From Brassica napus (Eukaryota; Streptophyta; Magnoliopsida; Brassicales; Brassicaceae), in the NCBI RefSeq assembly GCF_020379485.1, contig NC_063448.1:46943218-47007217 (forward strand): a stretch of 64,000 bases of DNA. Reading direction: 5' to 3'. How positions within the stretch are numbered: position 1 is the stretch's first letter; each line of letters begins with the position of its first letter. The translations under genes and the position numbers were made by a program. Positions 9,500-45,010 of this stretch are shown here, in pieces. The notes beneath the pieces were generated by a model. That model saw nothing but the letters and a program-made list of their open reading frames with translations, ran no database searches and was not told the DNA's origin.

Positions 9500-9513
9500 C
9501 GTTATCAGCACGA
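9500..9513 (+). promoter_or_regulatory. Primer-binding site, tRNA-Ile anticodon-arm type
   Basis: The 14 bases cgttatcagcacga directly follow the 5' LTR and are shared by all three copia elements here. They do not begin with TGG, so they do not match a tRNA 3' CCA end. They are complementary to the anticodon arm of plant tRNA-Ile(AAU) as I recall it, with C opposite the inosine at position 34. Confidence 0.6.
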
Positions 9514-11213
9514 TTGATCTCTAAAACCCTAAGCTAATACCCAAATAGAAAAACCCTAGAACCCTAACTCTAGCCGGCGATCTGACGAACCCTAAACCCC
9601 GATCGCGTCTCTTGTTCCCGCATCTGTTCCAGCTCGCGTCCCCGATCAGCTTCAGCCCAAGGCGTTCTTGATCCTAGCTCAGACGTTCGCGACCCGAGAA
9701 CAGCTCCAGCACACGACCTCTTCCTCGTTCGCGACAGCATCAGACAGCTCGCGTCCGACGATCAAGGCGTTCCCGATCAAGCAACAAAGGACATCTGCGA
9801 CCCGATAGAAGCGACTCGGTCCATTCCAGCTCGCGTCCCGTTCGTGTCCATCTCGCGGCTCAACTCCTTTGGTGGTCCGATTCAACAATCATCTAAGGTT
9901 AAAAGGTAATTCAAAATCTAAGAACCCATAATCGAACATGGATTGATTGATAAAGAATGAAACCCTAAAACCTTAATCTTTATGAATCAAAACCATAGGG
10001 TAATAGATCAAAAATCCTAATTGAGTAAATCGAAGCTCTAAAAGTTTGATACCCCAAACCCTAAATCATGTTCCTACATGATTAAAACCCCAAATCGGTT
10101 TTTACAATTTAAAATCCGATAAACCCTAACCCTATATCTATAAACCCTAAATAATATAAGTATCATAATTAATTATACTATAATTATCAAATCACATATT
10201 AAAACCCTAATCGAATATTTTGAAATCAAAACTGTTTTCGGTTTTGATAATTGAGGTTTTAAATCAGATTGAATCTGATGCTATGTTGCTAGAATTGTTT
10301 GACCGTTAAATTGATAGATTTATTTTCTCATCCTGCTTGGTTAATTGTTCATCTGATTTAAAATTGTTTAAACCAACCAGCCTGTTAAAACATTGATTGA
10401 ATCCGATAGGTTGCTAGCTTGCTTTGCTTATATAATCCGATAGGTTGATAGATTGAATGAGATTTACTTGTTTAAAATCCGAATGATATGATCTGAGGTT
10501 TAATATCATCTGTTAGGATTGATAGTTTTGTAATCTGATTTGTTTTAAATAAAAACCCTAAATAATCCGTATGATAGGTTATATTGATATGATTTAGATG
10601 TCTTTGAGAATTGAGAATTGAGAATCCGTAAGCTAGGTTGATAGATTCATGATAAAATCTAATGTCTTGAGGTTTATGATTGTATCTTAAGTTCGATTAA
10701 ATTGATTGATCTGATTATATGTTTTTGAGGTTTGATAAATTCGGATACTAAATAAATTATTTACACATTGTTTGTGCTAAATACCAATCAGCCTTGAAAC
10801 TGATTCATTGAAATTCATGCTTGAAATCTATATTCTAGTATTGCTAAAATCAGCCTTGAAACTGATTCATTAAAATTCATGCTTGAAATCTATATTCTAG
10901 TATTGCTAAAATCAGCCTTGAAACTGATTGAGTGCTTAATAAATCTTTTTATTAGTCTTGATAAAATCCATTGATTGTTAAACCATAATTGCATGATTAA
11001 TTGAATCCGTTTTTGCTAGTCTTGATAAACCATATTATTATGAGCGCATAGAAATAGTATTGCTGAGATTTGCTAGAAATTGACTGATTGATTAAATGCC
11101 TTTAAGATTGATAGTCTCATTATCCTCACAAGATTGAAATCCGAATTGATTGTTTTTAAGAGTAAGGCCGCATGAAAATTATACCTAAATATTGAGTGAT
11201 ATATGATTTGAGA
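9514..11213 (+). other. Noncoding leader of copia 1
   Basis: About 1.7 kb without coding potential between the primer-binding site and the gag relic. The first 700 bases are dotted with aaaccctaa/aaaccctag words (about nine to 10560). Later parts contain a tandem pair of near-identical units of about 63 bases (10793-10920, cagccttgaaactgattcat). Copia 3 also has a long AT-rich leader. Confidence 0.7.
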
Positions 11214-14200
11214 TGTCGAAAATCAACCTGGATTTTGCTGCCCTAAATCTCTCTAGAGATAATTATTTACGGTGGGAGTTGGATACCAAGATTATCCTAA
11301 AGTCAAAAAGACTTGGTGAATGTATCATAGAAGGCAATAATGCCAATGAGAAAGATTGATGCAGGGCAAAATTAATTATTAGCCATCATCTTATTAAGAG
11401 TCTCAAAGATCAGTATCTGACTATAGAGAATCCTCTAGACCTTTGGACAGAGTTAAAAATCGAGATATGATCACCAAAGAACAGTGTTATTACCAAAGGC
11501 CCTATTTGATTGGAGGAATCCCAGAATCCAGGACTATAAGTCCGTGAATGAATCTATTGCTAGCTGGGTAAAATAATGGATTACTGATGAGAAACAGTGA
11601 ATTGAGACCTTCTGGATTAACCCCATTACTTGATACCAATAAGGCCGCAGAAGGAAAAAAAAGGTAACCACGTGGAGGGTGGAAAGGACATGGCCATGGC
11701 CACTATAACACATTTGGCCGTCGGAATCACTATGGCAGAGGCCGTGGGTATCAACCCAATTTGAGCCATGGTCAAGGCAGTGGTTGTGGTATATCCTTTA
11801 AATCACAAAGCTCGACCAAATCAGTGTGCCATAGATGTGGAATGGGGAACCATTGGGCTAAGATACGAAGGACTCCCAAACATTTTTGTGACCTCTATCA
11901 AAGAGAGTCTGAAAGGAAAGAATCCTGAAACCCATTTGGTCTATAAAGATAGTGAATAATTTCGAACATGATCAAGATAATCTTATGGAATATGAGACTT
12001 ATTGTTGCCTAAAAGAATCAAGTTGATAATCTGATTTCGACATCAAACTTGTGTGATTGCTTTGCTTGTATGATTTCTCTGATTTTTATCTTCTTGAATT
12101 TATTTCTATTACATTGTCTTCTTAGATTAAATGAATGAATGATTTTTCTATATGAGTACACTGAAAAACGCCAATATAAGTACTAAAGCATGTATCACCA
12201 GTCTGAAAGAAGACTATGGCTAGGCTAATATATTATTGCCTAAGGGTATGCATCTAGAAATCAGAGATGTCTTATATTCACCCAGCTCTAAGAGCAAGAG
12301 CAGCATATTGAGTTTTAAAGATATAAGAATGAATGGTTTCCATATTGAAACAATGGGCGAAGGAAACAAAGAGTTCCTTCAGATATATGTATAAAATCGC
12401 CCAAGGCCATAATAAGTCCTAAAGACTATACCTGCATTCTCTACTGACCTAGACTATGCATAGATCAGTATGATAGAGGCTAAAAGCCTGCGAAAATATA
12501 CACTTTATGGCACGACCGGATTGGCCATCCTGGTCCAAACATGATGCGAAAATTGATATTCAAAAGGCACACATTGAAAGGAAGAAAGAGTTATCCCAAA
12601 GAATCTCACGTGTGTAGCATGTACACAAGGGAAACTCATTAGGCCGTCACCAGTAAAACGGCTACGAGCCCCTTTTTCATAATAAAGACTATATGTCTAA
12701 ATAATACTGTTGAATAAATGTCTCAAGCGTTTAAATGATTATGGTATGTCCATGGGGGTAAGTGTGGACAATTCTGTGATACATGTCCATATCAATAACG
12801 GCTTGGTTGAAATTTTTTAAAATGCAAATAGCTGATTGATAGACCATAACTTATGAGGTCAAAACTCCCATTCACAGCTTGGGCCACACGAAATTTACAT
12901 GCACCTAAGTTAATACGCATCAGGCCATTTAGTGAGCATAGATATCCCCTATCACAATTATTAACGGGTCAAGAGCCAGACATACTCCATCATAAAACAT
13001 TTGGATGTGTTGTCTATGTACTAATTGCTCCATCGCAGAGAACTAAGATGAGACCTCAAAAGGAGGATGGGGATATATGTTGGATATGATTCTCCCACAA
13101 TAATAAAGTACTTTGAGCCAACTATGGGTGATTATATTTGAGGCCAGGTACACAGATTATTTTAAGACCAGGAGGAGAAAAATAATAAAGCTGGGAAAAG
13201 AATGGTAAAAGAAATAAAATGGAATCAACCATCAATGTCTTGGCAAGATCCTCGGACTAAAGAATGTGAAATAGACGTCCAAAGATTATACATTTACAAA
13301 GCTAGCTAATCAAATGTCAGACACATTTGCTGACCCGAAAAAGAACGACTAAGTCATATATAAACCATCTTGTAAAGCACCAACGAATTTGATGTCCAAG
13401 AAGAGACACAGTCAAGTTGCTACAGAGTCTAGACAACGTATGAAACGTGATAGACCAAATAGGCTCCAAAAGATAAGAATCCTCGGAAACAAAAGAAAGG
13501 TGCAGAGAATGATAATCAAAATCCAAATCCGAGGTTACTAAGGAAACCATCCCAGACATGGAGATAAGGCCGGCCGGCTCTAAGGTACAGGTACCAAACA
13601 ATGTAGCTTGGGACGCCAAGCTGCAAAGTATTAAAGGTCCTGATAATAATGAATCTCAATCGATTATATCATGTCTGGAACATAATGGAACCAATAAGGA
13701 ATGTCGACATAAGATGATTTATTTGCATACAAGGTAGCACTTGAATTTATGAATATAAGCGAGGATCATGAACCCACGTCAATATAAGAGTGCGCATTCG
13801 TAGAACATATTGGATTGAATGAAAACGTGGGGTTAAATAGTTTAAGGAAGAAATGCGTATTTGACCATATGATTAAGACGCCATATGATGTTAAAACCAA
13901 TAGATATAAATGGGTCTTGTGAGGAATAGAAGTCGTGAGATATAAAGCTGATGTTGCACAAGGATTCTCACAAAGACCAGTAATAGATTATGAGGAGACA
14001 TACTCCCATGTGGTGGATGCAACTACTTTTAGATTTCTCATAAGTCTGGCTATATAAAAGAAAAAATTAGACGTGCATCAAATTGATGTAGTGACTGCAT
14101 ATTTATATGGTCCACTGGATAATGAAAGTACTAGAGGGTATTGAGCTGAAAGTACATCAAGTTCTCAAGAACAATATTGATAATCATCAAAGTATATGAT

Positions 14201-14860
14201 CTGAATATCCTAGTAACCTCTTAATACAATTTCCCAAACAGTTGAATATCTCAAGAAAGAGTTTGAGATGAAAGATCTTGGAAAACAAAGTTTTGTTTGG
14301 GATTACAGCTTGAGTACATTAACAATGAAATCCTTGTGCATCAAATAGTATATACAGAAAAGAGTACTCAAGGGATTTAATATAGACCAGTCTCACCCAT
14401 TATCTAGCACATGGCGTGAGATCACTTGTTTTGGACACTGATCCATTCAGTCCAAAGGTGGAGGATAAAGAAGTCCATTTAGTCCTGAGATGGACGATGC
14501 AGAAGTCTTGTTTTAGACACTGATCTGATTGGTCCATAAGAAGGACGATGAAGAAGCCTTCGATTTTGGTTTATTTTATACTAACCAGTCCAAAGAGGGG
14601 TTATTTGGTTTTGTTGATTTGTTTTCAGACAGGTTATGTTTTACACATGGTGGTACACGCATATCACAGCAACATCATCCAAGATTTCGTATGTGTGTAT
14701 TTGAGGTCAATGACTCAATATGTTCGATCAGATTGTGGCATGGCCGATGGTAAAGAAGAACCAACTATCATGTTCGAAGACGAAGCATATTCTGCCCAAG
14801 ATCTTCATCACCCACGGATTACAGAAAATTGGAGAGGTCCAAGGGACCTTCAGTAATGTC
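11214..14860 (+). pseudogene. Decayed copia gag-pol
   Basis: Gag begins MSKINLDFAALNLSRDNYL at 11214 and hits a stop after about 44 codons. A zinc knuckle at about 11829 reads CHRCGMGNHWAKIR, with the last Cys of CX2CX4HX4C lost. An integrase C-part survives at 12853-13089 (RIRPFSEHRYPLSQLL, FGCVVYVLIAPSQRTKM). RT fragments lie around 13870-14400 (the positions of YKWVL, VAQGFSQRP, FRFLISLA are recognisable in shifting frames). RNase H remnants lie at 14600-14830. Stops and frameshifts occur throughout. The 3' noncoding block with cagggggag follows. Confidence 0.85.
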
Positions 14861-15001
14861 CAAATCAGGGGGAGTAATGTATGTTGTACTCTTTTTCCTT
14901 CACCATGGTTTTGTCCCAATTGGGTTTTTCTGGTAAGGTTTTAATGAGGCAACATTAAAGCACATTACAAGCTCTAAATGATTATGGCATCCAAGGGGGA
15001 G
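14861..15001 (+). promoter_or_regulatory. Copia 1 conserved 3' block and polypurine tract
   Basis: Downstream of pol, a block beginning gttgtactctttttccttca and containing ccatggttttgtcccaattg and ggtaaggttttaatgaggca is shared with the other two copia elements. It ends in ccaagggggagtg, the polypurine tract that primes plus-strand DNA beside the 3' LTR. Confidence 0.75.
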
Positions 15002-15088
15002 TGTTATGAACCAGATTGTGGATGGCTCATAACCAAGAGATTATGATTTGTAATCTATCCATTTATCTATAACGGTGTAATCTCCTAT
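15002..15088 (+). repeat. 3' LTR of copia 1, left part
   Basis: Begins TGTTATGAACCAGATTGTGG and matches the 5' LTR up to ctcctat, where the CACTA element is inserted. The last three bases (tat, 15086-15088) are the CACTA target duplication. Confidence 0.9.
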
Positions 15089-15114
15089 CACTACAAGAAA
15101 ACAGCGACATACTG

Positions 15115-15590
15115 AGGGAAAAAATCGTCGGTATGTCGTCGGAATAACGTTATTTCGACGACATGCCGACGAAACAAGTCCTCGGAAATAACTCATCGGA
15201 AATTCATTTTTCCTCGGAAATCCCTCGTAATTTTCTGACGGAGTTCCGAGGAAACAAATTTCCGAGGAAATTCTGAGGACCACCTGTTCGTCGGAAAGCT
15301 CCTCGGAATATACCGAGGGAGAGCTTCCTCGGGATATTTCGATGGATTTTCCGATGGTCCAATCCTCGGAAGTTCCGAGGAACGGGTCCCTCGGAAAATT
15401 CTGAGGAACGGTGTCCCTCGGAATATTCCGTGGAACATTTCCCTCGGTATATTCCGAGGAACATGTCCCTCGGTATATTCCGAGGAACGGGGTCCCTCGG
15501 TATATTCCGAGGAACGGGGTCCCTCGGTATATTCCGAGGAAAATGTCCCTCGGTATATTCCGAGGGACCCCGTTCCTCGGAATTTAAAAA
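15115..15590. repeat. CACTA 1 left subterminal repeats
   Basis: Many copies of the palindromic motif ttcctcgg(a/t)ata/ttccgagg, becoming a regular array (gtccctcggtatattccgag, spaced about 36 bases) at 15440-15570. In En/Spm elements such subterminal repeats bind TnpA. The sequence motif differs, but its position and density fit that role. Confidence 0.85.
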
Positions 15591-15807
15591 AAATTAATTT
15601 TTTTTTAAAAAAATAAAAATTTTGAAATTTAAATTCGAAAATATAAAATTAAAATTAAAATTGAAATAATTAAAATTAAAATTAAAATTAAAATTCAAAT
15701 TTGAAAATATTCAAAGTTTCACAAATAAAAATAAAACATTCCGAGCTTTTGGAAAAAAAAAACTACGGGTCTGGCACGTCCGGGAACACCTCGTTCGGGT
15801 ACATCCT

Positions 15808-17382
<1,575 letters not shown>

Positions 17383-17389
17383 AATATTT

Positions 17390-17796
17390 AATAAATATAG
17401 AAATATATAAATTAATTTTTTTTTTTTTTAAAATCCCAAATAATAGTTTTTAATCACAAAAAAGATTTATAGATATTAAAAATGTTTAATAAATATATAA
17501 AAATAGTTTAATAATTACAAAAAATAGTTTTAATAATATTAAAAATGTTTAATAAATATAGACATTTATATAATATAAATATATATATATATATATATAT
17601 TTTTTAAAAATCCCAAATAATAGTTTTTAATCACAAAAAAAGTTTTATAGATATTAAAAATGTTTAATAAATATATAAAAATAGTTCTAATAAACAAAAA
17701 ATAGTTTTAATAAATAAAAAATAGTTTAATAATTACAAAAAATAGTTTTAATAATATTAAAAATGTTTAATAAATATAGAAATTTATAAAAAAAAA

Positions 17797-17831
<35 letters not shown>

Positions 17832-18180
17832 AAAATCCCAAATAATAGTTTTTAGTCACAAAAAAAGTTTTATAGATATTAAAAATGTTTTGTAAAATCC
17901 AAAAAATCAAATTTATATACAAAAAACGTTTTGTAAATCCAAAAAATCGAATTTATATACAAAAATCGTTTTGTAAAATACAAAAATCGAATTTATATAC
18001 AAAAGTCGATTTTATAAATACAAAAAAATAAAAAAATTCTAAATCAATTCAACAAAACAAATTATTCAACCAAATCACAATTCTAAACCTATTATACAAC
18101 CAAATCACAATCCTAACCAATCACCCTAACAAAAATCTATCAAATCTACACAAAAACCTAACAAATAGAACCTAAGAGAG
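17390..18180. repeat. AT-rich part of CACTA 1 with TA microsatellites
   Basis: Repeats of aaaatgtttaataaatata and aaaaatcccaaataatagtt recur three times, each near a (TA) run (17577-17600, 17800-17827). This looks like a decayed tandem duplication inside the 5' leader or intron of the tnpA-like gene. No coding capacity. Confidence 0.7.
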
Positions 18181-18479
18181 TGAGATAGGGTCCTTACATG
18201 ATTTGTGTAAGAGAAGGGGGAGATCGCCGGAGATATCGTCAGAATTCAGTGGGAAATCGCCGGAGAGGAGAGAGGAGCCGCGCAGAGGAAGAAGAGAGAA
18301 ATGGGGAAGAAGAAGCGGCTCGTGGTTATAAAACCTAGGGTTCGACGGATACTATTCGTCGGAATTTTGGCGGAATTCTAATTTCAATTTTCGCGAAATA
18401 TTTGCCCGGTTAAATGAAAATATTCTGAGGAAATTCCGACGGATACTAAAATATCCGTTGGAATTCCGTCGGAATATTC

Positions 18480-19995
18480 CGAGGAAATACCGAGGAACTA
18501 GTGTTTGGGGTTTCAAAACATCATTTTTTTTTGCCGTATTTCATTTCAAAGACTTCATAATCAGTCTAAGACACTTAATAAGGGTTATATAAGCGTTATT
18601 CAAACCGCAAAATGTTGTTTTCGGTTTAAAACCCCTATTTCCTCAGAATTTCCTCGGAATATTCCGAGGGAATTCCGAGGAAACCCTTATCTTCCTCGGA
18701 ATTCCGTCGGAATATTCCGAGGAAATGGCGAGGAACTAGTGTTTGGGGTTTCAAAACATCAAATTTTTTTGCCGTATTTCATTTCTTATACAATTGTAAT
18801 GCATACCATTGAGGATTCTTTGTATAGATGATCATAAACCATGAAATAACAAATTTCAAAACGAATTGAAAGTATTCCCTTTACCGTTCATTAAAGTGTA
18901 TAAGTGTTTCTCTTATGTTGTGGGGATTTCGTTCATACAATCGGAAAAGTGTTTATTATAGGGTAAGGAACAAAATTTTGACTTCATAATCAGTCTAAGA
19001 CACTTAATAAGGGTTATATAAGTGTTATTAAAACCGCAAAACGTTGTTTTTGGTTTAAAAACCCTATTTCCTCGAAATTTCCTCGGAATATTCCGAGGGA
19101 ATTCCGAGGAAACCCTTATCTTCCTCGGAATTCCGTCGGAATATTCCGAGGAAATGTCGAGGAACTAGTGTTTGGGGTTTCAAAACATCAATTTTGTTTT
19201 GCCGTATTTCATTTCTTATACAATTGTAATGCATACCATTGAGGATTCTTTGTATAGATGATCATAAACCATGAAATAACAAATTTTAAAACGAATTGAA
19301 AATATTCCCTTTAACGTTCATTAAAGTGTATAAGTGTTTCTCTTATGTTGTGGGGATTTCGTTCATACAATCGGAAAAGTGTTTATTATAGGGTAAGGAA
19401 CAAATTTTTGACTTCATAATCAGTCTAAGACACTTAATAAGGGTTATATAAGTGTTATTCAAACCGCAAAACGTTGTTTTCGGTTTAAAAACCCTATTTC
19501 CTCGGAATATTCCGAGGGAATTCCGAGGAAACCCTTATCTTCCTCGGAATTCCGTCGGAATATTCCGAGGAAATGCCGAGGAACTAGTGTTTGGGGTTTC
19601 AAAACATCAATTTTTTTTGTCGTATTTCATTTCTTATACAATTGTAATGCATACCATTGAGAATTCTTTGTACAGATGATCATAAACCATGAAATAACAA
19701 ATTTCAAAACGAATTGAAAGTAATCCCTTTACTGTTCATTAAAGTGTATAAGTGTTTCTCTTATGTTGTGGGGATTTCGTTCATACAATCGGAAAAGTGT
19801 TTATTATAGGGTAAAGAACAAATTTTTGACTTCATAATCAGTCTAAGACACTTAATAAGGGTTATATAAGTGTTATTCAAACCGCAAAACATTGTTTTTG
19901 GTTTAAAAACCCTATTTCCTCGGAATTTCCTTGGAATATTCCGAGGGAATTCCGAGGAAACCCTTATCTTCCTCGTAATTCCGTCGGAATATTTA
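18480..19995. repeat. Internal tandem array of CACTA 1, about 420-430-bp units
   Basis: About 3.5 units. The landmark gacttcataatcagtctaag occurs at 18551, 18980, 19410 and 19828, giving periods of 429, 430 and 418. Each unit contains a gccgtatttcatttcttata part and a block of the ttccgagg palindromes found at the element ends. The first unit is internally deleted, and the last is cut off next to a poly(A) run at about 19997. Confidence 0.93.
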
Positions 19996-20018
19996 TTAAA
20001 AAAAAAAAAAAATCGATG

Positions 20019-23000
20019 CTACTCTGTTTCCGAGTCATCATCACCAGATGAATCTAAATCTGGATCTTGGTAAAACTCTCCAATCACTGGTTCATCCTCT
20101 GCGTGAACGACGGCTTCCTCTCCGAAGTCGGTTAAATCGACTACAAGGCCAACTCCAGCTAAATCTTCTGCTGCACTTAAGTTGCCGGATCTGCTTGGTT
20201 GTAGTGGGTCTTCCAGCTCAGAACTTCCCTGAACTCGGCCCCTCGGGTTGAGTCTTGTAACAGTAACCCATGGATCATCTCTGTTCCTTACCCGGGGGTA
20301 CTTGATATAACAAACCTGTAACATTTAAAAAATTATTAGTAAAATTATAAATTAATACACATGATGATGAATCATTCTAAATAATTAATATTTAATTACC
20401 TGATCGGCCTGAGAAGCAAGAATGAAAGGATCATAATATTGCAGCTTTCGCCTCGAATTTACTGATGTAACACCAAATGCATCTGTTCTCACACCTCGAT
20501 CTAGAGTGTTGTCGTGCCAATCACAATAGAAAACAGTACAACGCAATCCAACCATGCCCAAATACTTGATTTCCAAAATCTCACGTATGTGTCCATAATA
20601 TACATCATCTCCTGATGCAGAACAAACGCCAGCATCATAAGTCGTACTCGAACGTCTCCTCTTCTGAGTTGTGAATGCATATCCTCGAGTACAAAATCTC
20701 GGATATGACTTCACAACAAATTTTGGTCCAACGACCATCTCGCGTATCCAATCGTCAAATGTTTCACCTCTGGCCAAACCAGCAGACACCTAGATTAATA
20801 GCACATATATATGTTATATCAATAAATATGAATTAGTATAAATATGTGATAAATGATATTTTAATTTGTTTAAAGCACTCACATAAGTAAACATCCATCC
20901 AGAAAATTCTCTCTGCTTCATTTCTTCTAGCTCGTCCTCTGTGGCGTATCTATATTCGAACCGCTTTTCTGCCATGAAAATCCTGTACATATGATGACAA
21001 TAATATAATTAATTAAGATTTAAATTTCAACTTGTTAAAATGAAAATTTGTAAGCTAATTTATTTACCTCTCATATTGAAGAACATCTTCGCAGTTGGTG
21101 AGCAAATATGTTTGCAAATTACTGCGCTCCTGCTCAGTAAGTCGACGATCCTTTGGTTTTCCGTTAAGTCGTCCAACGTCTGTGAAAATGTCTGGAACCG
21201 TAACATGATATGTTGCCCGTTCGCCTCTATCATCATGCCGAGCAGGTCTTCTGTTTTTGGTCTGAACTTCTGCTGGAAAGTAGTTCTCGGCAAAGTTTGA
21301 AGTTTCTTCATTGATCATCTGTGCGACTATAGAACCTTCCACCCTACTTAAATTTTTCACCATCTTCTTCAAATGGAACATATACCGCTCATACAGATAC
21401 ATCCATCTATACTGCACAGGACCACCAAGTTCCAATTCTCTTGCCAGGTGAATAACAAGATGCTCCATAACATCAAAAAATGAGTGAGGAAATATCTTCT
21501 CAGGGTTGCACTGAATCACGGCTATGTTAGTCTTCAAATTTTCAATACCTTCAAGAGTCACTGATCTCGTGCATAAATCGCGGAAGAAACCACTTATCCC
21601 TGCAATTGTTTCATGAACATTTCATGGTAATAGTTCCTTGAAGGCAAACGGAAGGAGGCGCTGCATCATTACATGGCAATCGTGGCTTTTCAAGCCAGTA
21701 AACTTTTCTTCCTTTCTGTCGATACAGTTACGCAAATTTGATGCGTAACCGTCTGGAAATTCCACATCGTTTGAAATCCAATCAAAGAACGCATCTTTTC
21801 CCTCTGCATCAAGTCAGTATATGGGAAAAGGAGCCCTACCATTCTCATCAACATGAAGTTCTGAACTAGCACATATATCGACTAAATCCAGTATTGACTT
21901 CAAATTATTCTTTGTTTTACCTTGAACATTAAGGATCGTGTTCATGAGATTGTCAAAAAAGTTCTTCTCAATATGCATGACATCTAAATTATGTTTTAGC
22001 AGATGATCCTCCCAGTATGGCAGATCCCAGAAAATACTTTTTTGTGCCAGTTATGTAGGTCTCCAACAGCATCTACCGGAAAACGCTCATGTCCACCGAC
22101 GTCTGGCGTCCTTTCTGCACCAAAATCTCTTAGTTGTATCTTCAAATCTTTCCCACAAATTTCCGGAGGTGGACTGTCAAACACCCTCTTGTTCTTCGTA
22201 AACAAATTCCTACTCCTACGATATGGATGATCAGGTGGTAGGAATCTCCTGTGACAGTCAAACCAACACGTTTTCCTTCCGTGTTTTAGTTGGAAAGCAT
22301 CAGTGTTATCTTGACAATATGGACATGATAGCCTTCCATGCGTTGTCCATCCAGATAACAAACCATATGCTGGAAAATCACTTATTGTCCACATTAGTAC
22401 TGCCCGCATTTGAAAGATTTCTTAACACGAAACATCGTATGTTTCAGCACCTTGAGCCCATAGTTGTTGCAACTCATATATTAGTGGCTGAAGAAACACA
22501 TCAAGTGATATCTTAGGATGCTCTGGTCCGGGAACGAGAATCGAGAGAAACAAAAACTCTCGTCGCAAGCACAAGTTTGGGGGTAGGTTGTATGGTGAAA
22601 GAATGACGGGCCATAGAGAATACTGTCTTCCACTCTTGCCAAACGGGCTGAAACATTCAGTACATAATTCAAGGTAGACATTTCTTCTCTCATACGCAAA
22701 GTCGGGATACTTTGATTGGAAATGCTTCCACGCTTTTGCATCTGAAGGATGTCTGATCTCACCATCTGTTGAGTGCTCCGCATGCCATCTCATTGGTTGC
22801 GCTGTGCGTTCAGACAGATACAACCTCTGCAACCTTTCCGTCAAAGGCAAATACCACATCCTTTTATATGGCACTGGAACTCTTCCACTCGTATCTTTAT
22901 AACGAGGCTTTCCACAAAATTTGCATGTAACCCGCTGTTCATCCGCCCTCCAATAAATCATGCAGTTGTCGCTGCATACATCTATTACCTGATACGATAA

Positions 23001-23611
23001 ACCAAGACCAGCTACGAGTTTCTGAACCTCGTAGTATGAACCAGGAGCTACATTATCCTCGGGTAGAATACATTTTACAAAATCAGCAATCGCATCCACA
23101 CAGTCTTCAGCTAAATTATAATCTGTTTTAATGGCCATCAATCTTGTAGCAGATGATAAAGCTGAATGACCATCTCTGCAACCTTCGTACAATGGTTGCT
23201 TTCCAGCATCCAACATATCATAAAATCTCCTAGCTTGTGCATTGGGTAAATCTTCCCCTCTAAAATGATCATTTACCATCTGCTCAGTACCTACACCATA
23301 ATCTACATCCGTTCTAATTGGTTCTTCTAATCTAACTGCTGGCTGAGGTTCGCTAGTACTACCATCTTCATAATCACATCTTCATAATCAGTTTCCTCAT
23401 GATGATACCAAATTTTGTAACTTCGTGTAAACCCACTCAAATATAGATGAGTCCAAACATCCCACTCTTTAATAACCTTTCTATTTTTACAATTAGAGCA
23501 AGGACATCTTAACATACATGTTTTTGCTTCCGGTTGTCGGTGAACTAACCCCATGAATTCGGTTATACCTCGTTGGTATTCTTCCGTAAGCAATCTCATG
23601 TTCGGATCCAA
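20019..23611 (-). pseudogene. tnpD-type transposase of CACTA 1
   Basis: Reading on the minus strand: a transposase-associated N-terminal domain (23611-23327, with CMLRCPCSNCKNRKV); the tnp2/Transposase_21 core (23279-22422, with KFCGKPRYKDT and HAEHSTDGEIRHPSDAKAWK); its continuation in another frame (22409-21996, ISDFPAYGLLSGWTTHGRLS, CPYC zinc ligands); a DUF4218-type region (21561-21064, FFDVMEHLVIHLARELELGG); a DUF4216-type region (20789-20385, FYCDWHDNTLDRGVRTDAFG); and an acidic C-terminus (20324-20019). Frameshifts at about 23320, 22415 and 21990-21560, plus stops, break it. Full-length family members exceed 1000 residues. Confidence 0.9.
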
Positions 23612-23754
23612 ATGAGGTCGATCGATCCAAGAACGAAAATAATTTGAAGAAGAGATGTTTTTTTATGAATCAAATTCGTGTGTAAAGAGAGTAAGAGGGA
23701 GGATGGAGATATGGAGTGAATGAAGAGGAAGAGGGGTGCTTGTATTTATAGTTG

Positions 23755-24045: not shown

Positions 24046-24060
24046 TTTCTTGTAGTGTAT

Positions 24061-24129: not shown

Positions 24130-24134
24130 ATTAT

Positions 24135-25103: not shown

Positions 25104-25108
25104 TCGGT

Positions 25109-31175: not shown

Positions 31176-31180
31176 TCGGT

Positions 31181-31814: not shown

Positions 31815-31982
31815 TGTTATGAAAATAAGGAGAAAGTATGTATTTTTATTAGACAGTAAAAAACTCTTTATATAGGAAATTACATAAGTATTAAATCATA
31901 ATAAAATATGGGCTAGGAAATACAAATACATAAAAATATGTGCATTCGAATATGGGATTCCACCAGACCTTGGTTTATAATA
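31815..31982 (-). repeat. 3' LTR of copia 3
   Basis: 168 bp matching the right-hand copy. On the minus strand its TG start has mutated to TA (ctccctc/tattataaacc). The polypurine tract caagagggag lies just inside at about 31983-31992. Confidence 0.85.
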
Positions 31983-31992
31983 CTCCCTCTTG

Positions 31993-32125
31993 AAAGACCA
32001 TCTCCGAAGTGGTTTGTAATACGCTTTGGATGCTGCCTCATTAAAACCTTACCAGGAAAACTCAATGGGATAAAACCATGGTGAAGGAAAAAGAGTACAA
32101 CACGTATTGCTCCCCCTGTTGATTA
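31993..32125 (-). promoter_or_regulatory. Copia 3 conserved 3' block
   Basis: The minus strand reads cagggggagcaatacgtgtt, gtactctttttccttcacca, tggttttatcccattgagtt and ggtaaggttttaatgaggca. This is the same block found downstream of pol in copia 1 and copia 2. Confidence 0.75.
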
Positions 32126-34190: not shown

Positions 34191-36566
34191 CTCCCCCTCG
34201 AGATAATAACACTTAATGTTTATTTATCTCGTATTGAATCCCAAACTTAGGTAATTTTATATCAAATTTTGTTCCCTTAGACACTAAAAGTGTGCAACAA
34301 ATAGCCAGAACTAAATTAAGTCTAATTAGATTAATAGATATTTAAATTCGACCAAGATAGATTATTCAAAAGACTTTCACCAAGGAATTTTGGCCAAGAG
34401 GATTCGGCCAAGATGATTTTACCAAAATGCTTTGGCCAAGAGATTCTATTAGTTTGACTAGATTTCATATTTAACCAATAGAAATTTCAATTTGGCCAAG
34501 CTTTTGCCTTCGGTCAAAGTCTTTTAAAGGTTGGCGAAGAGAATTTAGACTTTGCATTTGATCAAGATTTAAGCTAGGCCAAGCTTCTACATTTGGCCAA
34601 GGCTTTAAAGATCATGCGATTGTTCATTAGGCCAAACATAAGTTTCGGCCAGGCAAAATCCGAATGGTTCTAGGATTCTTATAGATTTCGGCAAATGACT
34701 AATTTTATGATTAGATTTTAAGTTTTAAACAAGTGATCATGTCTTAAAATTTGGCTAAGATTTCTTTTGGCCAAGGCTTTGAGAAATGATCCTACAAATG
34801 TTCATATGAACATGTATAGTCTTGGCCAAGCCAAATCCAAACAGTTTTAGGATTTTGTTATGTGTTTCGGATTTGCTAGAATTTTGAGCATATGATTCAA
34901 GGTTTAAAAACACATATAGGCCAGACAATGTAATTGAATCAAGTTTAGCATATGATGAAGTTTTGATCCTACGGTCAAGCTTTTAATCATGCGGATAGGA
35001 TTTTATGCAATCTCTATGTTTTAAACAAGCAAGGCATCATTTTCAATCAAGTAATCAGCTAGCAAATCAGATTTCGATCATGTGAGCATGTGACTGAGCA
35101 AATTAAATCTAGGTTCCATGCTACATGCAATCGGATTTTATCTTTAACAATCAATCCAGATTTTAGTTTCTTAGCATGCGAGCTAGGCGATCAAACAAAT
35201 CAGATTTTGGGTTTGAAGCATGCGAATCAGATTTGGTTAAGACATACGATTCCGATTTTAAACATATCATGTGATCAAGCAACCAAATCAGATTTCAATC
35301 AATAGCATGTGATCAAGGCAATTTCTATTTCTCTAGGATTTAATCATGCGATTTCAATTTCCTACGTCTAATCGATTTTAATCAATTAGCATATGAATAA
35401 TTTCAATCTAATCATGAAATTTTATCCCTAGGTTCATATGATCAAATTATGGAATTCTAATTTAAATTTATTAAGTTTTAAATTTTCAGGAAATTCCGAT
35501 AAACATGCGATCATATTTTAGGTTAAATTTCAAATCCTAATTCTAATAGGATTTAGACACAAGAACATCTAATTATTCTTAGTCTAATTATGCAACCTCA
35601 AACATGTATTTATGCATGAAAAATATCAAGTTATACAAGCATGAAATCGGCCAAGACAAAAACCCTAATAACTTTGTAACAACCTTGTAACAACCTTCCT
35701 ATTTTTTTTAAGGGTTCTAGGTTTTAGCATGCAATTTCAGTTTTAATGTTTATGTTTCGATTTCTAACATTAAAATATGTAATTTCTATTAGAGATCAGA
35801 TCAAACAATTAGGTTTTATCAATCCTATCATGTGATTAACAAAATCAGATTTTAAACCTAAACATGCGATTTAATTTTCTATGTCTACCATGCGATTTTG
35901 ATTTTAATGTTTAGCATATGATTTGCAAACCCAAAACATGCAATTTCTATTAACAAACAGATCATACAATCAAGTTTTAATAATCCTAGCATGTGATTAG
36001 GTGGTCAAACAAATCAAATTTCAATTAAGCATGCGATTTGCAATTTTATGCCTAGCATGCAATTTCTAATTTAAAAAACATGCAATCAGATTTTCTTAAA
36101 CAAACAATCAGATTTTAAAGCTTTAAACAGCATGTGAAAACAAGTTTTAGAAAGTTTTCATCAAGAGGGTTTTAATTTTAAAGCTATGCGATTTTTAGGT
36201 TTAAGCAAATTAGGTTTTAGATGTTTAGGAATCGGTTTTTCAAGCATACCAAGTATGCGATCTGATTATTGACATAATCAGATCAGAAACTATAGTTTTA
36301 GGTATATGATTCAACTTTTAGAATTATTAGAATCATATTAGATAGTATAGGTTTATACAATTTTTGGTTTTAAGCATGACATTCGATTTTCATGTCATGC
36401 GATTTTAGGTTTAGATTAGTTCTTAGGTTTAAAACTTATGACCATGTTTTACAAAGTTTTAAACATGTACTTTATGATTTATAAGGATATAAATCGAATT
36501 ATGTATTCATAGTTGGTAGGGTTTCGATTTCTATGATCACATATTAAGGTATATGCGATCGGTTCT
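34191..36566 (-). other. Noncoding leader of copia 3, left part
   Basis: AT-rich region full of loosely repeated words (ttggccaag in the first 700 bases; catgcgattt and caatcagatttt in the rest). No coding capacity. It continues at 44456-44995 on the other side of CACTA 2. Confidence 0.65.
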
Positions 36567-36589
36567 CACTACAAGAAAACATAATCTTA

Positions 36590-37020
36590 ACGAGGGCGGT
36601 TTTCCTCGTGAGTTCGCCGTAAAAGAGGCTTTACGACGAATTAGCGAGGAACCACGTTTGCTCGTTACTCATCTGTCGTGACACATATTTCCTCGCTAAT
36701 TCGTCGTAACTTAGCAAGGAATATATTTCGCCGTAAAGACGAAGTAGATCATTTCGTCGTAAAGACCACGTCAATATTCCACGTAAGGAGGTCGCTATAT
36801 TTCCTCGTAAATACCTCGAAACGAGTTCCTCGTAAACTACACGTAAATACCTTGAAAGTGTTTCCTCACAAAATACACGGAACGACCACGAAAAGATTTC
36901 CTCGTAAAATACTCGTTTATCTTTCCTCGTTATTTCTTCGTAAATGTTTTCTCGTAAAATACTCGTTTACTATTTCTCGTCATTTCCTCGTAAGGTTTCC
37001 ACGTAAATAGGTCGTACATT
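36590..37020. repeat. CACTA 2 left subterminal repeats
   Basis: Dense short repeats of ttcctcgtaaa, acgtaaatac and acgaggaa in both orientations, followed by an AT-rich stretch to about 37190. The right side has the same motifs at 44130-44440. These are likely transposase-binding sites. Confidence 0.8.
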
Positions 37021-37197
37021 AGCTACGAATTTACTTCGTTTTTATTATTTTACAGAATTTAAAAATATAATTAAAAAATAATTAAAATTATTTAATTTAT
37101 TAATAAAATTAAAATTTAAAATAAAAATAAATCAATATGAAAATATTTTATATATAAATAAGTTTTGAATTTATAATAAAACAACCGGAAAAAAAAA

Positions 37198-38870
37198 CTA
37201 AGGGTCGTTCATCGCCTGGTAGAATTCATCACTCCTCCTCGTAACATCCGCCTCGTTATGTACGTCGGATGACTCGTCTCGAATGGGATGTTGTTGTCGC
37301 ATGTTCCTCAACATAGACTCCCATTCCGGATTTGTGGCCGCTGTAACGTCCAAGAAGCCCTCGACTCCACCCATACGAGATTTTGTCGCGGCCAACTCGT
37401 TACGCAGATGAGCGGACTCTCTACGCAGCTCAGTGACTTCATCATCCCGTCGCTGACCATAAGACGATGTCGCTTTCGGAACATCGTTGACGGAACCAAT
37501 CCCCAACGTCCGTCCCTTTTTTTTAGGGTCAACCTTAAAAACAAAAAATAAATATTGTTAGTAAAAATTTAAAGTTATATTAAATGAATAATAAAAAATT
37601 AAAATTTTTGAAAATTTACCTCGTCGTAAATCTTATCCACTTCAAGTGTGGATAAGGTGACGGGTACTCCGTCAGTAGACTGCTGGGTCAGCTGAGTCTG
37701 GCGGTCTTCAACCCGAGCAACCACGTCGTTGTAGATTTGCTTGGACTTGCCATCTCGTAAAGTTCCATAAGAGACGGAAGATGTCTCGTCTCTTTGGCCT
37801 AAAAAACATTTAAGAATGTTAGAATAAAATATATATATTAAAAAATTTATTTAATAAAATATTTAATTACCATTTCCAAACGGACACCGGCGTGGAGTTT
37901 TTGGCCCGTAGTGTGAAGCATCGGCCCGTTTCCGTGCTCATCGACCGTGTTACGGGAGTTAGAGCAAGCCTGGGCGATTCTAATGGAATCAGGAAGGCGC
38001 CAATAACGGATGAGGCCATCCCACACATCCGTTGTGAGCTCAGCGGGTTTGCCACGCTCATACCCCTTCACGATCCAGTCACCCTTCCAGTTGGAGACCG
38101 TGTCCAACAAGCGAAATTTCGCCTTCGCGTTAAACTTCTTCCTCACCCTCTCAGTGATCCCCAAGGCCCAATTATATTTTTGCTGTTGGAAAAAATAATT
38201 TAACAATTAGTTTTTTAGAAAGTATATATATAAATCATGAAAAAATTAAAGTATATATAATTAATTAATAGAAACTTACAGCGTAAATTTTGAACCACGT
38301 CTTTCTGACGTAGTGAGGCGTCTTACTCCAGTTCGGATGTGCCATGGAGAAGTAACCTTTGATCGTGTCGGTTACGTCCGATGCAAGACATCCGTCAACC
38401 CCCCACCTGGAAAATACAAATTTAAAATATAAATTATTTTTTAATGTTATAAAATAATTTTAAACGAATTAAAAAAAAATTAATGCAACATACCACAAAG
38501 TTCCGTCCGGTCGGTCGGGTTCGATGACTGGTAAACCTTCTCTGCCTGGCAGACGGAGAATGTCCTCTACATTGTACTGCGAGAAAGGAGCACTCGGAGG
38601 CACCATCAAATCGGGATGAATATCGGCGGCCATCAGAGGTGCCATCGGAGGAGGCACAGGAGGAGGCATCGTCGGATGAGCCATCGGGGAAGGCACATGA
38701 GGAGCCGATGGTGCACTAGAAGAAGTAGACCCAGAGACTCTCTGAGTGTACTGAGTCTCGGGGACAGTCTCCTGACCCGAAGAACCGGGGGCTGAAGAAG
38801 AGGCCGGTTCTAAACGACTACCCGGCTCACCGAAGATCTCTCTGTAATGGGCAATAAGTCTTCCTTTTCA
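37198..38870 (-). pseudogene. tnpA-like gene of CACTA 2
   Basis: Exon-like blocks on the minus strand. 38870-38469 is Pro/Ser-rich, including PPVPPPMAPLMAADIHPDL and EDILRLPGREGLPV, which parallels RQPGRDHLPYLTPYPYG of CACTA 1. 38400-38280 is a short block. 38206-37847 is a conserved core (FNAKAKFRLLDTVSNWKGDW, IRYWRLPDSIRIAQACSNSR). 37506-37198 is a C-terminal coiled coil ([20 protein letters not shown]). This is a plant En/Spm tnpA-type protein. Intron borders are plausible, but an intact spliced frame was not verified. Confidence 0.65.
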
Positions 38871-38879
38871 AACCTGAGA

Positions 38880-40370
38880 AAAAAATTAAATTTTTAAAAT
38901 TAACATCAATAGTATATTTCCCAACATTATCCACCTAATGAACACTAAATAACATAAAATCCGTAAACCTATCTAAATTCCCTATACTAATCATCTAATC
39001 TATCCTAAACTAACCAACTTAGAGAGGCTTACCATTGCTACGAAATTGAGAGGAAGTGGAGAGGAAGTAGAGAGGAAAGAAAGAGTGAGCGTCCGGGGGT
39101 ATATATAAGATTACATATCGTCGTAAATTCGTTATAAGGTTACGACGAAATAGCGAGCAGTTACAAAGGCCAGTGTTTTTCAATACGAGGAAATTGCGAG
39201 GAATCACAAAGGCCCGTGTTTTTATATACGTGGTATTAACGACGATTTTGCTTACGTGGAATTAACGAGCCTTGCTTTCCTATAAATATACCCACAACTT
39301 TCATTCTCAAACCACACACAAACTCCCAAATCACACTCTATCTCAAATCACATTCCTCAGCAAAATCATATTCAAATTATAAATATTTGAAGAAAATAGG
39401 AAAAGGAGAAGATATTAGAATTCATGTGGGCGAGACTTACGTATTATAATTGCTGGAAGTCTTGTCACATGTTAATCTGGTATTTTTCTCCTTTTCGTTT
39501 TTTTTCTAGTTTTTACACTGCGAGGTATTTACGACGATTTCTGCTTACGTTGTATTTACGACGATTTCATCCAACGTGGTCTTTACGACGATTTGAACTT
39601 ACGTGGAATTAATGAGTGTTTTGTTTAAAACTTTTTACGAGGTGTTTACGACGATTTCTGCTTACGTGGAATTAACGAGTATTATGTTTAAATCCCTAAA
39701 ATCCGAAACCTCTAAACCTCAAACCCCAAACCCCAAACCCCAAACCCCAAACCCCAAACCTGAAACCCCAAACCCAAAACCTCAAACCCCGAAACCTCTA
39801 AACCCCAAACCCCAAACCCCAAACTCGAAACCCCAAACCCCAAACCCCATATTCCAAACCCCAAACCCCAAACCCCAAACCCCAAACTCAATATTCCTTA
39901 TTTTCATATATTCCAAACTCCATCTTTATTTTTAAATTTCTTCGTTATTTCCTCGTTGGCTTACGAGGTATTTACGACGATTTCTGCTTACGTAGAATTT
40001 ACGACGATTTCTTATACGTGGTGTTTACGACGATTTGTGCTTACGTGGAATTAACGAGCCCCACGTTCTTTATTTTAATATTTCGTCGTTATTTCCTCGT
40101 TGGCTTACGAGTCCTTAACGACGATTTGTGCTTATGTGGAATTAACGAGTGTTATGTTTAAATCCCTAGAATCCTAAACCCTAAACCTCAAACCCTATAT
40201 TCCTTATTTTCTACTTCATATATTCCAAACCCCAACTTTATTTCCATTCCAAACCACAATTCTCACATTTGCTTATTCATAAAACAAACTCCCACATTAC
40301 CTTATTCATAAAACAAACCCCACATTATATTATTCATAAAACAAACTCCCTCATCTTATTCATAAAACAA
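38880..40370. repeat. CACTA 2 internal noncoding region
   Basis: Between the two gene relics. It contains repeats of acgtggaattaacgag and gtatttacgacgatttctgc at 39230-39270, 39525-39690, 39970-40050 and 40105-40150. These are the same motif classes as the element ends. The arrangement parallels the internal array of CACTA 1. It includes the ccccaaa array and several aaaacaaactcccac copies (40278-40360). Confidence 0.75.
39716..39897. repeat. (CCCCAAA)n telomere-variant microsatellite
   Basis: About 180 bases of ccccaaa heptamers with variants, ending at catattcc. Another short copy with true telomere-type ccctaaa words lies at 40165-40195. The plant telomere unit is CCCTAAA, so this is a one-base variant. 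The lysine/proline/threonine open frame through it is an artefact. Confidence 0.93.
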
Positions 40371-40375
40371 ATACA

Positions 40376-43300
40376 TCAATCGGATACATCGACATTCTCG
40401 TCAACACTAGAAACATCATCATTTTCATTAAACTCGTCTTCAACAGCTTCGTCTGTGGCATCATCGGTAAGATCTTCGTACTCGTAATTATGCGGATCAA
40501 TGAGAAGGATTTCATCAATTTCTTGTTCAGGTTCCTCGACTTCATTTATCTGTTCTTCTTGCAATGGTGGTTCTTCTCCACTGATGATTCGTCCTCGAGG
40601 TGTAACTTTGATCACTGCTAACCAATTTATACCTGAATCTCTCAATTCGAGGGTATGGAAGGAAGCTAACTTGGTCTGCTTGTGAAGCTAAGATGAAAGG
40701 CTCGAATTTGTTGTACCTTCGTCCACCGTTGACATCAACTACACAAGGTTAGACCGAACACTTCTGTTGACGACAGGGTCGAACCATTCACATTTGAAGA
40801 GGACGCATTTCAGCTTCAGTATCCCTGGAAATTCGAGTTCAATAATCTCCGTCAAGATCCCGTATAAATCTGTTTCCCCTTTCACACATATTCTATAGTT
40901 ACTGGTCGCCCGCTGTCTACCATACTCATATGTATGAAAAGTATAGCCTCGTGTGAAATACATCTGTGATGTGGTGACCTTTACAAGTGGAAATTGAATT
41001 ACTTCGTGTAACCACTTAGGATAATCTGCATCGTCGTCGTCATAATCAACCTGCAAAAATAAAGAGAATGTTAATGAAATACAGATCATGTATGAAAAAA
41101 AGTTTGAGTTAATACATGATTCCGCAACCACTTAATGAAGTGTTGATCTTTCCTTTTGTCTACGTCACTTGTGGATATACCAGGAAATGTTTCTTCGACT
41201 TGAGAAACAAATAGGCTGTAAAATCACATTTTATAGGAATGAATCTCTCGCAATTATACAATTAATTATACTTATATGTGTTTCGAAGTGTCAATATATG
41301 TTACCTTTCAAAATAACGCATCAATGGATCTTCGCAATTGAGTAGAATATAGGTGTGTGCACTATGAGCGTCTTGTTCACTCGACCACCAAACCTCTTTA
41401 TACTTCCCACCGAGTCGTCCAATCTGGCTAAAGATGTATGGAACACCAGCAACTGCATATGTTGGTGCAACACCACCATCATCATATCTTCTTGGAGCTC
41501 TTCTCCGGGTTCGTACTTTTGACGCAAAGTAGTACGATGTGAAGTGAGAAACTTCTTCCGTCAAACTTCCAGCAATTATAGAACCTTCAACTTTGGCGAG
41601 GTTCTTTGCTTTTCCCTTCAAATATTTCATGGCTTGCTCATACTTATACATCCATCCGTAATGTACAGGTCCACGAAGCAATGCCTCATGTGGGAGGTGG
41701 ACAGCTAGATGCTCCATGACGTCAAAAAATCTGGGAGGAAATATCTTCTCCAAGTTGCACAATAAGATGAGTATGTTCTCCTGAAACAGTTCCACAACTT
41801 CTTCTTTAAGAATGTGTGTGCTCAGATCCCTAAAAAATGCTCTAATGCCTTTTATATTCCAAAAAAAATTAAACACATTGTTAGTCATATATTATTTTGT
41901 AAATTATTATGATATAATACACTACGTACCTGCAAGTGCTTCATGTACGTTTGTTGGAAGTAGCTCCGCAAATGCAAAGGGCAGTAGTCGTTGCATAAAG
42001 ACATGACAATCATGACTCTTCATCCCGGAGAACTTTTGACCCTTTTCAACACATCTAGAGAGATTCGAAACATACCCATCAGGGAACTTCACTTCTGATG
42101 CCACCCAGTTGAACAACACCGACTTTTTTCTGAAGATAATCTGAATATCGGAACGGGAACTTGTCCATTGCTTTTAATATGTAACTCGCTTCTTGAGCAA
42201 ATATCCGGCAAGTCCAACCTCGATTTTATGTTGTCTTTTGTCTTCCCTGGGACATTCAATATTGTATTCATGATGTTCTCAAAGAAATTATTCTCTATAT
42301 GCATCACATCGAGGTTGTGGCGCAGAAGAAGATCCTTCCAATATGGCAACTCCCAAAATATACTCTTCTTGTGCCAGTTGTGATGAACACCGTAAGAATC
42401 AGGCATATTACGAGGGACATGCCAATTACCACCCCAACGAACTGTTTCGTTAGCTCCGTAGTAGTCGATTTGCGCTTCAATTTGTTCTCCAGTTAGATAT
42501 GGAAGAGGAGTGTCTCTCACAACCCTTTTGTGCCTAAACAAATTCTTGTTTCTTCGGTAAGGATGGCCAATGGGAAGAAATCGACGGTGATAATCAAACC
42601 AACTTGTCTTCCTACCATTCTTCAGTTGAAACGCATCTGTCGTTCTATTACAATATGGACAAGCTAATCTCCCATGTGTAGTCCATCCAGACAACATCCC
42701 ATAGGCAGTAAAATCACTTATGGTCCACAAAAGCATCACTAGCACCGTAAAATTTGTCTTCGTTGAACAGTCATACGTCCTCACCCCTGTTGACCACAAA
42801 TCCTTCAACTCTTTTATCAGTGGTTGTAGGAAAACATCCAGGGACCTTTTTGGATGGTTCGGACCAGGTATTAATATGGTCAAGAATAGCAACTTCCGTT
42901 GCATGCACATCTCCGGTGGCAGGTTGTATGGTGTAAGAAAGACTGGCCACAATGAATATTGTCTCCCTGACATTCCGAACGGACTAAATCCATCTGTGCA
43001 TAGTTCGAGATACACATTCCAGATATTGCTAGCGAAATCCGGATGTACTTTGTTGAAATGTTTACAGGCTCTTGCATCTGATGGATGAGTCATTTCACCA
43101 TCCGTCTGAGTATGCTCGGCATGCCATCTCATCTTTCCAGCAGTCTGCTCTGATTGATACAATCTTTTCAATATGTCTGTAATTGGTAGGTACCACATCC
43201 TTTGGTACGGTACCCTATTACGTCTCCGTCCTTGAGGCTTGAATCGTGGCTTCTTGCAGAATCGACATTCTTCTAGCTTCTCATCATCTCCCCAATAGAT

Positions 43301-44035
43301 CATGCAGTTGTCGATGCAAACATCTATCATCTCCGAAGGCAACCCAAGACTATAAACCAGTTTCTGAATCTCATAATAAGAATCAGCAGACACATTGTCT
43401 TCCGGCAAATACTCTTTAAACAAGTCCGCCCATTCGTTCATGCAACTTTCAGGTAGATTGTGATCAGTTTTAATATTCATCATTCTAGCAGCTAACGACA
43501 ATTTAGAGAGACCTTCTCTACAACCACTGTAAAGTGATTGATTCGCGGCGTTTAACATTTCGTAAAACTTTTTTGCATCTATATTAGGTTATTCATCTTC
43601 ATCATGAGCTACGAATGCATCAGCTACCATATCATGAACCCTATCATAATCTACCATCTCCTCCTGATGGTAACTATGTTCATTATGCAAATGATGATCA
43701 ACCGGTTCTTTTTCCTCAAAATTGCTATTACTACTACTAGCTTCATTCTGATCATAATTAAAATCTTCTCCATGTTGAAACCAGATATAGTAATTTGGCG
43801 TGAAACCTCTATTTATTAAATGCTTCCAAACATTTTCACGGTTTGCCAGTTTCGAATTGTTGCATTTCCGACAAGGACAGAACATCTTACCACTTTCTTG
43901 GGCGAGCGGTGTTGAATATGCTTGATGCATAAATGTCTCCAGACCCGCAAGGTATTCTTTCGTCACTCTCCTGTTAGCATCTCTATGCATATACATCCAC
44001 TTCCGCAACTCGTAAATAGTCCTGGAGCCAGCCAT
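40376..44035 (-). pseudogene. tnpD-type transposase of CACTA 2, lightly damaged
   Basis: ATG at 44035 (MAGSRTIYELRKWMYMHRDA), giving the transposase-associated domain (CPCRKCNNSK). A single in-frame TAA at 43589-43591 splits it from the 489-codon Transposase_21 core (43558-42089), which has KKPRFKPQGRR, HAEHTQTDGEMTHPSDARAC and the CPYC ligands. A one-base loss in an A run at about 42120 shifts the frame to LFNWVASEVKFPDGYVSNLS (42119-41922). DUF4218-type (41888-41301, FFDVMEHLAVHLPHEALLRG) and DUF4216-type (41131-40739, FKCEWFDPVVNRSVRSN) regions and an acidic tail (40645-40376) follow, partly across introns. Few lesions are visible for a protein of this size. Confidence 0.92.
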
Positions 44036-44455
44036 TTTTTTTTCTTTCACGTTTTTTGTTGTTGGTGTGTTTAAAATGATGTTCAAACATCCATATTTAT
44101 AGGAAATTTCGAATCAGGTAGTTGTAATTTTCCAATGAATTTACGACGAAAATTAATTAGGTGGCAAAAAAAAACTTGTAACACCTACAAAGTTGGTGGA
44201 TTCAAAATTTCCTCGCTAAATACACGTAAACTATTTCCTCGTAAATAACACGCAAAGTTTACGTCGTATTTACGAGGAAATAGTTTTTCCTCGTAAAATA
44301 CTCGTCAAATTACATCAACTTTACAACGGAACACTTTTGTCGTTACGTTACGAGGAAATAACGATGACTTTTGTTTTCCACGTAAGTTCCTCGTAAAATC
44401 GACGTAATTTTACGAAGATTATTTTTCCTCGTTAAGCATGTGTTTTCTTGTAGTG

Positions 44456-44995
44456 TCACTCTTTTATGGTTCGAGTTTATTTACATTAAACTCGACCTCT
44501 AAGTAGTTTTAAAGTTTGAGATAGTTTACCTATGAACTCCTTTTGATCTGAATGGGAAAGAGAGTTTGATCGCACGGGCAGCAACTCCTCTCGGCTTGAA
44601 CTCCTTGTTGATATTAGATTTTAATTCCCTCGGCTCATGAAACAACACGAGGAGCATTAGATAACATGAACGCCAACAAGATAACATGAATCAACTAAGG
44701 TATAATAAACTTATCTTGCACAGGAGTTGAGTTCGGCTAGAAAATCCTTGTTGGAATCGGATTTGGTTTCCAAATCAAATTGGCGCGCACTGTATCTTTG
44801 CGTGAGGGTGCGTCGGTGGTCAGATCGACAAGCGGTTTGCACTGACGGATTCGTCTCGGCGAGGGTTTCGATTTGATATCTTGATCGCCTGCTAGGTCCT
44901 CACGGTTTGAGAGAACGACCTCTTTGAAGTTCCGAGACAGATTTCTTTGCGTTTAGGGTTTGATGATTTTCGGCTGGGGCTTAAGGCTAAAGACT
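44456..44995 (-). other. Noncoding leader of copia 3, right part
   Basis: Continuation of the leader next to the primer-binding site. The minus strand has gene-leader character (ctaaacgcaaagaaatctgt, several ccgagac words) but no coding frame. Confidence 0.6.
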
Positions 44996-45010
44996 ATCGT
45001 GCTGATAACG
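44996..45010 (-). promoter_or_regulatory. Primer-binding site of copia 3
   Basis: On the plus strand atcgtgctgataacg, the sense of a tRNA-Ile-like anticodon arm. On the minus strand it reads cgttatcagcacgat, directly after the LTR, and is identical to copia 1 and copia 2. Confidence 0.65.

Follow-up and report, generated by a model that had tools for sequence, protein, structure and literature searches.

Which transfer RNA (tRNA) primes reverse transcription in three copia retrotransposons of Brassica napus whose primer-binding sites (PBS) lack the standard TGG start, and where does the sequence behind these sites come from? The elements, here E1, E2 and E3, lie in a stretch of 64,000 nucleotides (nt) of contig NC_063448.1 (assembly GCF_020379485.1, forward-strand positions 46,943,218 to 47,007,217), referred to as the window. 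All three carry the exact 14-mer CGTTATCAGCACGA, at 9500-9513 (+), 25317-25330 (+) and 44997-45010 (−), in each case immediately 3′ of a long terminal repeat (LTR) ending in AACA, and a second LTR copy is present for each element. Scanning the window for the 14-mer with up to two mismatches gave 3 matches against 0.25 expected, and none of 100 shuffles gave three. The initial annotation had reported the same 14-mer after all three 5′ LTRs (at 9500, 25317 and, on the minus strand, 45010) and the lack of a standard TGG start; both observations were reproduced, TGG being absent from the first 30 bases past the LTR ends of E1, E2 and E3. In the 997-Mb host genome the site preceded by AACA was found 2617 times (reversed control, 0), and the site with at most one mismatch 3721 times (reversed pattern, 58). 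AACA precedes the site in 95 of 102 distinct complete contexts. No initiator-type PBS was found within the 0.31 Mb of sequence examined, and no tRNA gene was detected by ARAGORN in the window.

The site is complementary to positions 27-40 of tRNA-Ile, with a C instead of a T opposite position 34. The anticodon-arm pattern of this tRNA, GCGTCGTGCTNATAACGCGAA, occurs at 61 sites in the host genome, with A at position 34 in 60 and G in 1; ARAGORN identified 7 of 8 fetched sites as tRNA-Ile(AAT) and found none at the eighth. The match to the tRNA-Ile anticodon arm in all but position 34, proposed in the initial annotation, is thus real. When inosine-cytosine is counted as a pair, all 14 PBS bases pair with tRNA-Ile. 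The first of them pairs with position 40, because the LTR ends in CA. The primer 3′ end, earlier placed near nucleotide 39-40, falls at position 40 by conventional numbering, which is actually the 41st nucleotide of the tRNA since tRNA-Ile has a position 20a. The single site with G34 belongs to a tRNA-Ile-like gene, L187 (C475:23048041-23048061), in which the G could be a mutation or could mean that the gene is derived from an edited tRNA.

Judged by this pairing, the 5′ half of tRNA-Ile(IAU) very probably primes these elements, with the C of the PBS opposite inosine 34 (I34). The same priming has already been published as a prediction for Bianca elements, whose PBS is complementary to an edited half-tRNA-Ile, the A-to-I change at the first anticodon base permitting the pairing (Neumann et al. 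2019, PMC6317226). The earlier proposal of such priming was a correct, independent rediscovery of that prediction and remains the best reading of the site, except for one part that is taken up below. It might be objected that the half-tRNA primer is known here from sequence only, and that the site is no tRNA-Ile PBS at all, with self-priming or some unknown RNA in its place and a match due to chance or shared descent. This is hardly credible in view of the 14/14 pairing, the exact abutment to the LTR, the 2617 genomic matches and, in part of the families, an adjoining match to the D arm of the same tRNA.

In many families the leader, which directly follows the PBS, extends the complementarity into the tRNA-Ile D arm. 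The leaders sampled were those of the three window sites and of the first 100 listed of the 3721 host-genome matches, with 102 complete contexts; L089 was left out as incomplete, and L124, L151 and L165 were left out of the test on 17 families, the site not following CA (in L165 it follows CTCC, which is not an LTR context). One site appears under two labels, L082 and L174, and was counted twice in the family A table, in the reading by eye and in the tests on 17 and 19 families; the recount of 102 contexts is without L174. Compared with the complement of positions 1-26 of tRNA-Ile from the real gene, the leaders of 7 of the 17 families reached p<0.05 against shuffled leaders (combined 8e-8), and those of 6 did so when the tRNA was shuffled instead (combined 5e-7). 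With a provisional tRNA sequence as target, 8 of 19 families passed (combined 2e-6). The families are related and their p values hence not independent. For one of the passing families, with three members, E1 was the copy used in the test (p=0.0025); the E1 leader at 9514-9542 (+), CTCTAA..CC..TAAGCTAATA, is similar to the complementary sequence of D arm and acceptor strand. Some leaders extend to the 5′ strand of the acceptor stem, as does L087 (CTAATAGG, to be compared with genes starting GGCCTATTAG). In 87 of 102 copies the motif CTCT, the complement of D-stem bases, lies at most 14 nt from the site; of the 50 copies that extend as far as bases 42-56 downstream, none has it there. D arms resemble each other between tRNAs, so that the D-arm match takes its tRNA specificity from the anticodon arm. 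Judged by titles and the beginnings of abstracts in the open literature, a D-arm extension next to the PBS has not been described for retrotransposons.

The positions at which leaders depart from the tRNA complement are few. In family A, which comprises 24 copies, each of the positions 25 to 12 agrees with the tRNA complement in 20-24 of them, with the exception of 20a, where only 1 copy matches and G stands in 21 and C in 2. At position 26 no copy matches (A in 17, G in 7), and beyond position 12 the match fades, position 11 agreeing in 9 copies and position 10 in none. Genome-wide, the D-arm extension was found at 76 sites against 0 for the control, one of the 76 being the tRNA-like gene L187. 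In the other 75 extensions, part of them inspected in context, the base opposite 20a is G in 66 and A in 9 and never C or T; T20a is present in 57 of 57 tRNA pattern sites. Among 99 distinct copies with the site after CA, the base right after the site, opposite position 26, is T in 62, A in 27, G in 10 and C in none. With two departures in the 15 positions 26-12, the post hoc chance of hitting exactly 26 and 20a is 1 in 105; position 34 was left out of this figure, the exact 14-mer having served to pick the sites.

Positions 26 and 20a are known positions of tRNA modification, and the departing bases are those that reverse transcriptase inserts there. Arabidopsis TRM1a/b, when expressed in yeast, make N2,N2-dimethylguanosine at position 26 (m2,2G26), and this modification stops reverse transcriptase at 27 (PMC7704012). 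Among Arabidopsis complementary DNAs, the commonest reading of m2,2G was U, followed by A and then C, corresponding to the insertion of A, T and G, and inosine, seen there in Thr tRNA only, was read only as G (PMC2674459). For position 20a, 3-(3-amino-3-carboxypropyl)uridine (acp3U) has been proven by mass spectrometry in human tRNA-Ile(AAT), it reads as U-to-C, that is, with insertion of G, and land plants have it at this position in nuclear tRNAs (PMC6895100); dihydrouridine at 20a has been reported in Arabidopsis tRNAs (PMC12501074).

These coincidences suggest a copying model, proposed by analogy with retroviruses, in which plus-strand synthesis stops before 1-methyladenosine 58 (m1A58) and some of which keep an over-extension sequence beside the PBS (PMC13191261). 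Mature cytosolic tRNA-Ile(IAU) would be cut after position 40, and its 5′ half would prime the minus strand, the 14-nt PBS pairing with positions 27-40 and its C with inosine 34. The plus strand would then copy the primer, writing C opposite I34, and would normally stop before m2,2G26; the PBS would be 14 nt long because synthesis halts there. At times it would run on through the D arm, placing a non-C base opposite 26 and G opposite acp3U20a, and the leader past the PBS would be a trace of such copying that is inherited, decays and is renewed from time to time; this leader may additionally aid the annealing of the primer half. The C opposite position 34 may thus have been written by reverse transcription. 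The earlier reading of this C as an adaptation to the edited base is here one possibility only: reverse transcriptase also writes C when copying inosine, and related leaders look as if copied from the modified tRNA. The whole explanation, half-tRNA priming together with copying of the modified primer into the leader, appears to us moderately probable. That the leaders record the modified 5′ half of tRNA-Ile in DNA, with I34, dimethyl-G26 and acp3U20a written as C, non-C and G and repeatedly renewed from the tRNA, is put forward tentatively, as a possibility somewhat short of an even chance.

The same leaders might instead be maintained for pairing. Half-tRNA-Ile priming would then proceed as published, without any copying of the tRNA. 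Selection would preserve the pairing of the leader with the D arm as the second part of a bipartite PBS like those of Ty1 and Ty3 (PMC5371799), and C34 and the D-arm bases would be pairing adaptations. Families with a decayed loop keep matches to both strands of the D stem (CTCT...CTGAG, by eye), a G opposite U20a can wobble-pair, and the duplex energies of leaders with tRNA positions 1-26 beat those of shuffles (combined p 2e-6, 19 families, provisional tRNA sequence), all of which would be expected from pairing. By itself, however, pairing leaves the break at 26, the departure at 20a and the A or G of family A at 26 unexplained, and we consider it an unlikely, if serious, alternative.

Copying from the tRNA also bears on differences within families, two of which contain some copies with a perfect tRNA patch whose flanks are 90-96% identical to those of patch-less copies. 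L188-L190 and L116 belong to the family of L086 and L102. Within the first 28 nt, L188 differs from L086 solely by ATCC to CCAA, four adjacent bases that restore the tRNA complement, and the flanks are identical at 143 of 152 and 134 of 140 positions. In a reverse transcriptase tree without outgroup, L116, which has the same four changes, stands beside L102 (support 84/76) among the ATCC copies. L185, from the family of E1 and L092, carries a 20-nt perfect tRNA complement. Six bases of this stretch set it apart from L092, each agreeing with the tRNA in L185, and the flanks are identical at 140 of 156 and 125 of 134 positions. L184 is a perfect complement of positions 12-40 bar C34; its LTR is 90% like that of L090 across 83 bases, but its relatives in the sample are too diverged for close comparison. 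From these alignments we infer that re-copying from the tRNA would explain the patches simply. The leader matches could instead go back to one ancient capture that was recombined between families and is functionless now. An origin of this kind would accommodate the recurrence of the CCAA/ATCC alternation in two families and the presence of CTCTAAATCCCTGAG in many (by eye); it has to let the 20-nt perfect match of L185 outlast neutral decay and yet be lost in L092, the flanks of which are 92-94% alike by blastn. We regard it as quite improbable, with half-tRNA-Ile priming being right in this case too.

Several observations weigh against the copying model. The match to positions 27-40, including C34, is there by selection, since the sites were chosen by the exact 14-mer. 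The leaders of two of the three window elements, E2 (p 0.99) and E3 (p 0.90), show no match, and 10 of the 17 families fail to reach p<0.05. The copies of family A share an ancestor, and their departures represent few events. The T majority opposite 26 does not fit a simple misreading with A first, and several families with T at 26 have to be shifted to align to the tRNA (by eye). L184 has a C at this position. Two further changes in the L116 stretch are not towards the tRNA, just past its patch L185 is less close to the tRNA than L092 (CTAATA), and the CCAA patch in two families could result from exchange between elements or be the ancestral state. Sequence of the primer tRNA is reportedly not inherited in Ty1. 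The presence of m2,2G26 and acp3U20a in plant tRNA-Ile is itself inferred; in the Arabidopsis report, m2,2G is seen in Asn, Met and Tyr tRNAs only (PMC2674459).

E1, E2 and E3 are, judged by sequence, members of a large copia lineage, most likely Bianca. Besides the PBS complementary to half-tRNA-Ile, E2 shares with Bianca a gapped pair of open reading frames (ORFs), 148 bp apart in E2 and 172 bp on average in Bianca (PMC6317226). Complementarity to the D arm downstream of the PBS, which is seen here in part of the families, goes unmentioned in the available part of that article. The reverse transcriptase of E2 was matched in 26 of 41 PBS-bearing stretches (38 from the host's own genome and 3 from the window) and not in the other 15; within the host genome most of these matches have 62-98% identity, apart from a few short pieces below that range. 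Of the best 120 among 7770 protein matches, all but one show 72-94% identity, the exception being at 56%; those named by organism come from flowering plants. A search of viral contigs for relatives of this reverse transcriptase gave none. The 15-mer ACGTTATCAGCACGA was met in 73 stretches of viral contigs, with ACA in front of only 1, and these were taken as chance matches.

A cut tRNA as primer would be shared with Drosophila copia, in which it is a half of the initiator tRNA-Met, and with yeast Ty5. The latter differs from the present elements in using the initiator tRNA-Met (PMC5371799). The over-extension of lentiviruses and spumaviruses, to which the leaders of part of the families may correspond, is a tRNA-complementary sequence directly 3′ of the PBS, beyond the modified nucleotide that causes the stop (PMC13191261). 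There a full tRNA with its 3′ end and m1A58 are involved, here a 5′ half, the D arm and G26. The bipartite PBS of Ty1 and Ty3 would resemble the present arrangement in that primer tRNA and element RNA make additional contacts (PMC5371799), and differs in that a full-length initiator tRNA-Met primes from its native 3′ end.

E1 (9388-24129, +) is flanked by the target site duplication (TSD) ATTAT at 9383-9387 and 24130-24134. Its 5′ LTR (TGTTATG...AACA) occupies 9388-9499; the interior holds decayed copia pol remnants at 12604-14787 (+, tblastn) and some decayed gag. The 3′ LTR is split into 15002-15088 and 24058-24129 (both +), the first three bases of the second part being the TSD of the insert. 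This insert, at 15089-24057, is a CACTA-type element (CACTACAAGAAAA...TTTTCTTGTAGTG) with a 3-bp TSD, TAT; its minus strand encodes pieces of tnp2 and DUF4218. E2 (25109-31175, +) lies between copies of the TSD TCGGT at 25104-25108 and 31176-31180. Between its LTRs, at 25109-25316 and 30941-31175 (the latter with AAGGGGGAG in front), it has a gag ORF at 26122-27081 (+, Retrotran_gag_2) and, from the ATG at 27230, a second coding region to 30795 (+) in two overlapping frames with Pol_BBD, integrase and reverse transcriptase. The integrase (rve 61-154) precedes the reverse transcriptase (RVT_2 513-756), which is the copia order. E3 (31815-45180, −) has its 5′ LTR at 45011-45180 and its 3′ LTR at 31815-31982, 86% identical across the aligned part, and a decayed reverse transcriptase remnant at 32221-32994 (−) with 27% identity to that of E2. 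No exact TSD was found for E3 (flanks TGTCC/CGTTC). Inside it, tnp2 transposase, transposase-associated domain and DUF4218 pieces at 41301-44113 (−) are probably a second CACTA-type insertion, and a degenerate array of CCCCAAA-like units stands at 39667-39915. Elsewhere in the window, pieces of another kind of reverse transcriptase (RVT_1, zf-RVT, RVT_3) at 6316-9088 (−) and 61805-63079 (−) are presumably LINE-like, and direct repeats no shorter than 300 nt and 98% alike lie at 51889-53402 and 52258-59847, 1214 and 7290 bases apart.

If the copying model is true, the old question of whether retrotransposons inherit sequence from their primer tRNA would become testable from genome sequence, and the thousands of copies of these elements would constitute a natural archive of how tRNA is modified and of the points at which reverse transcriptase stops.

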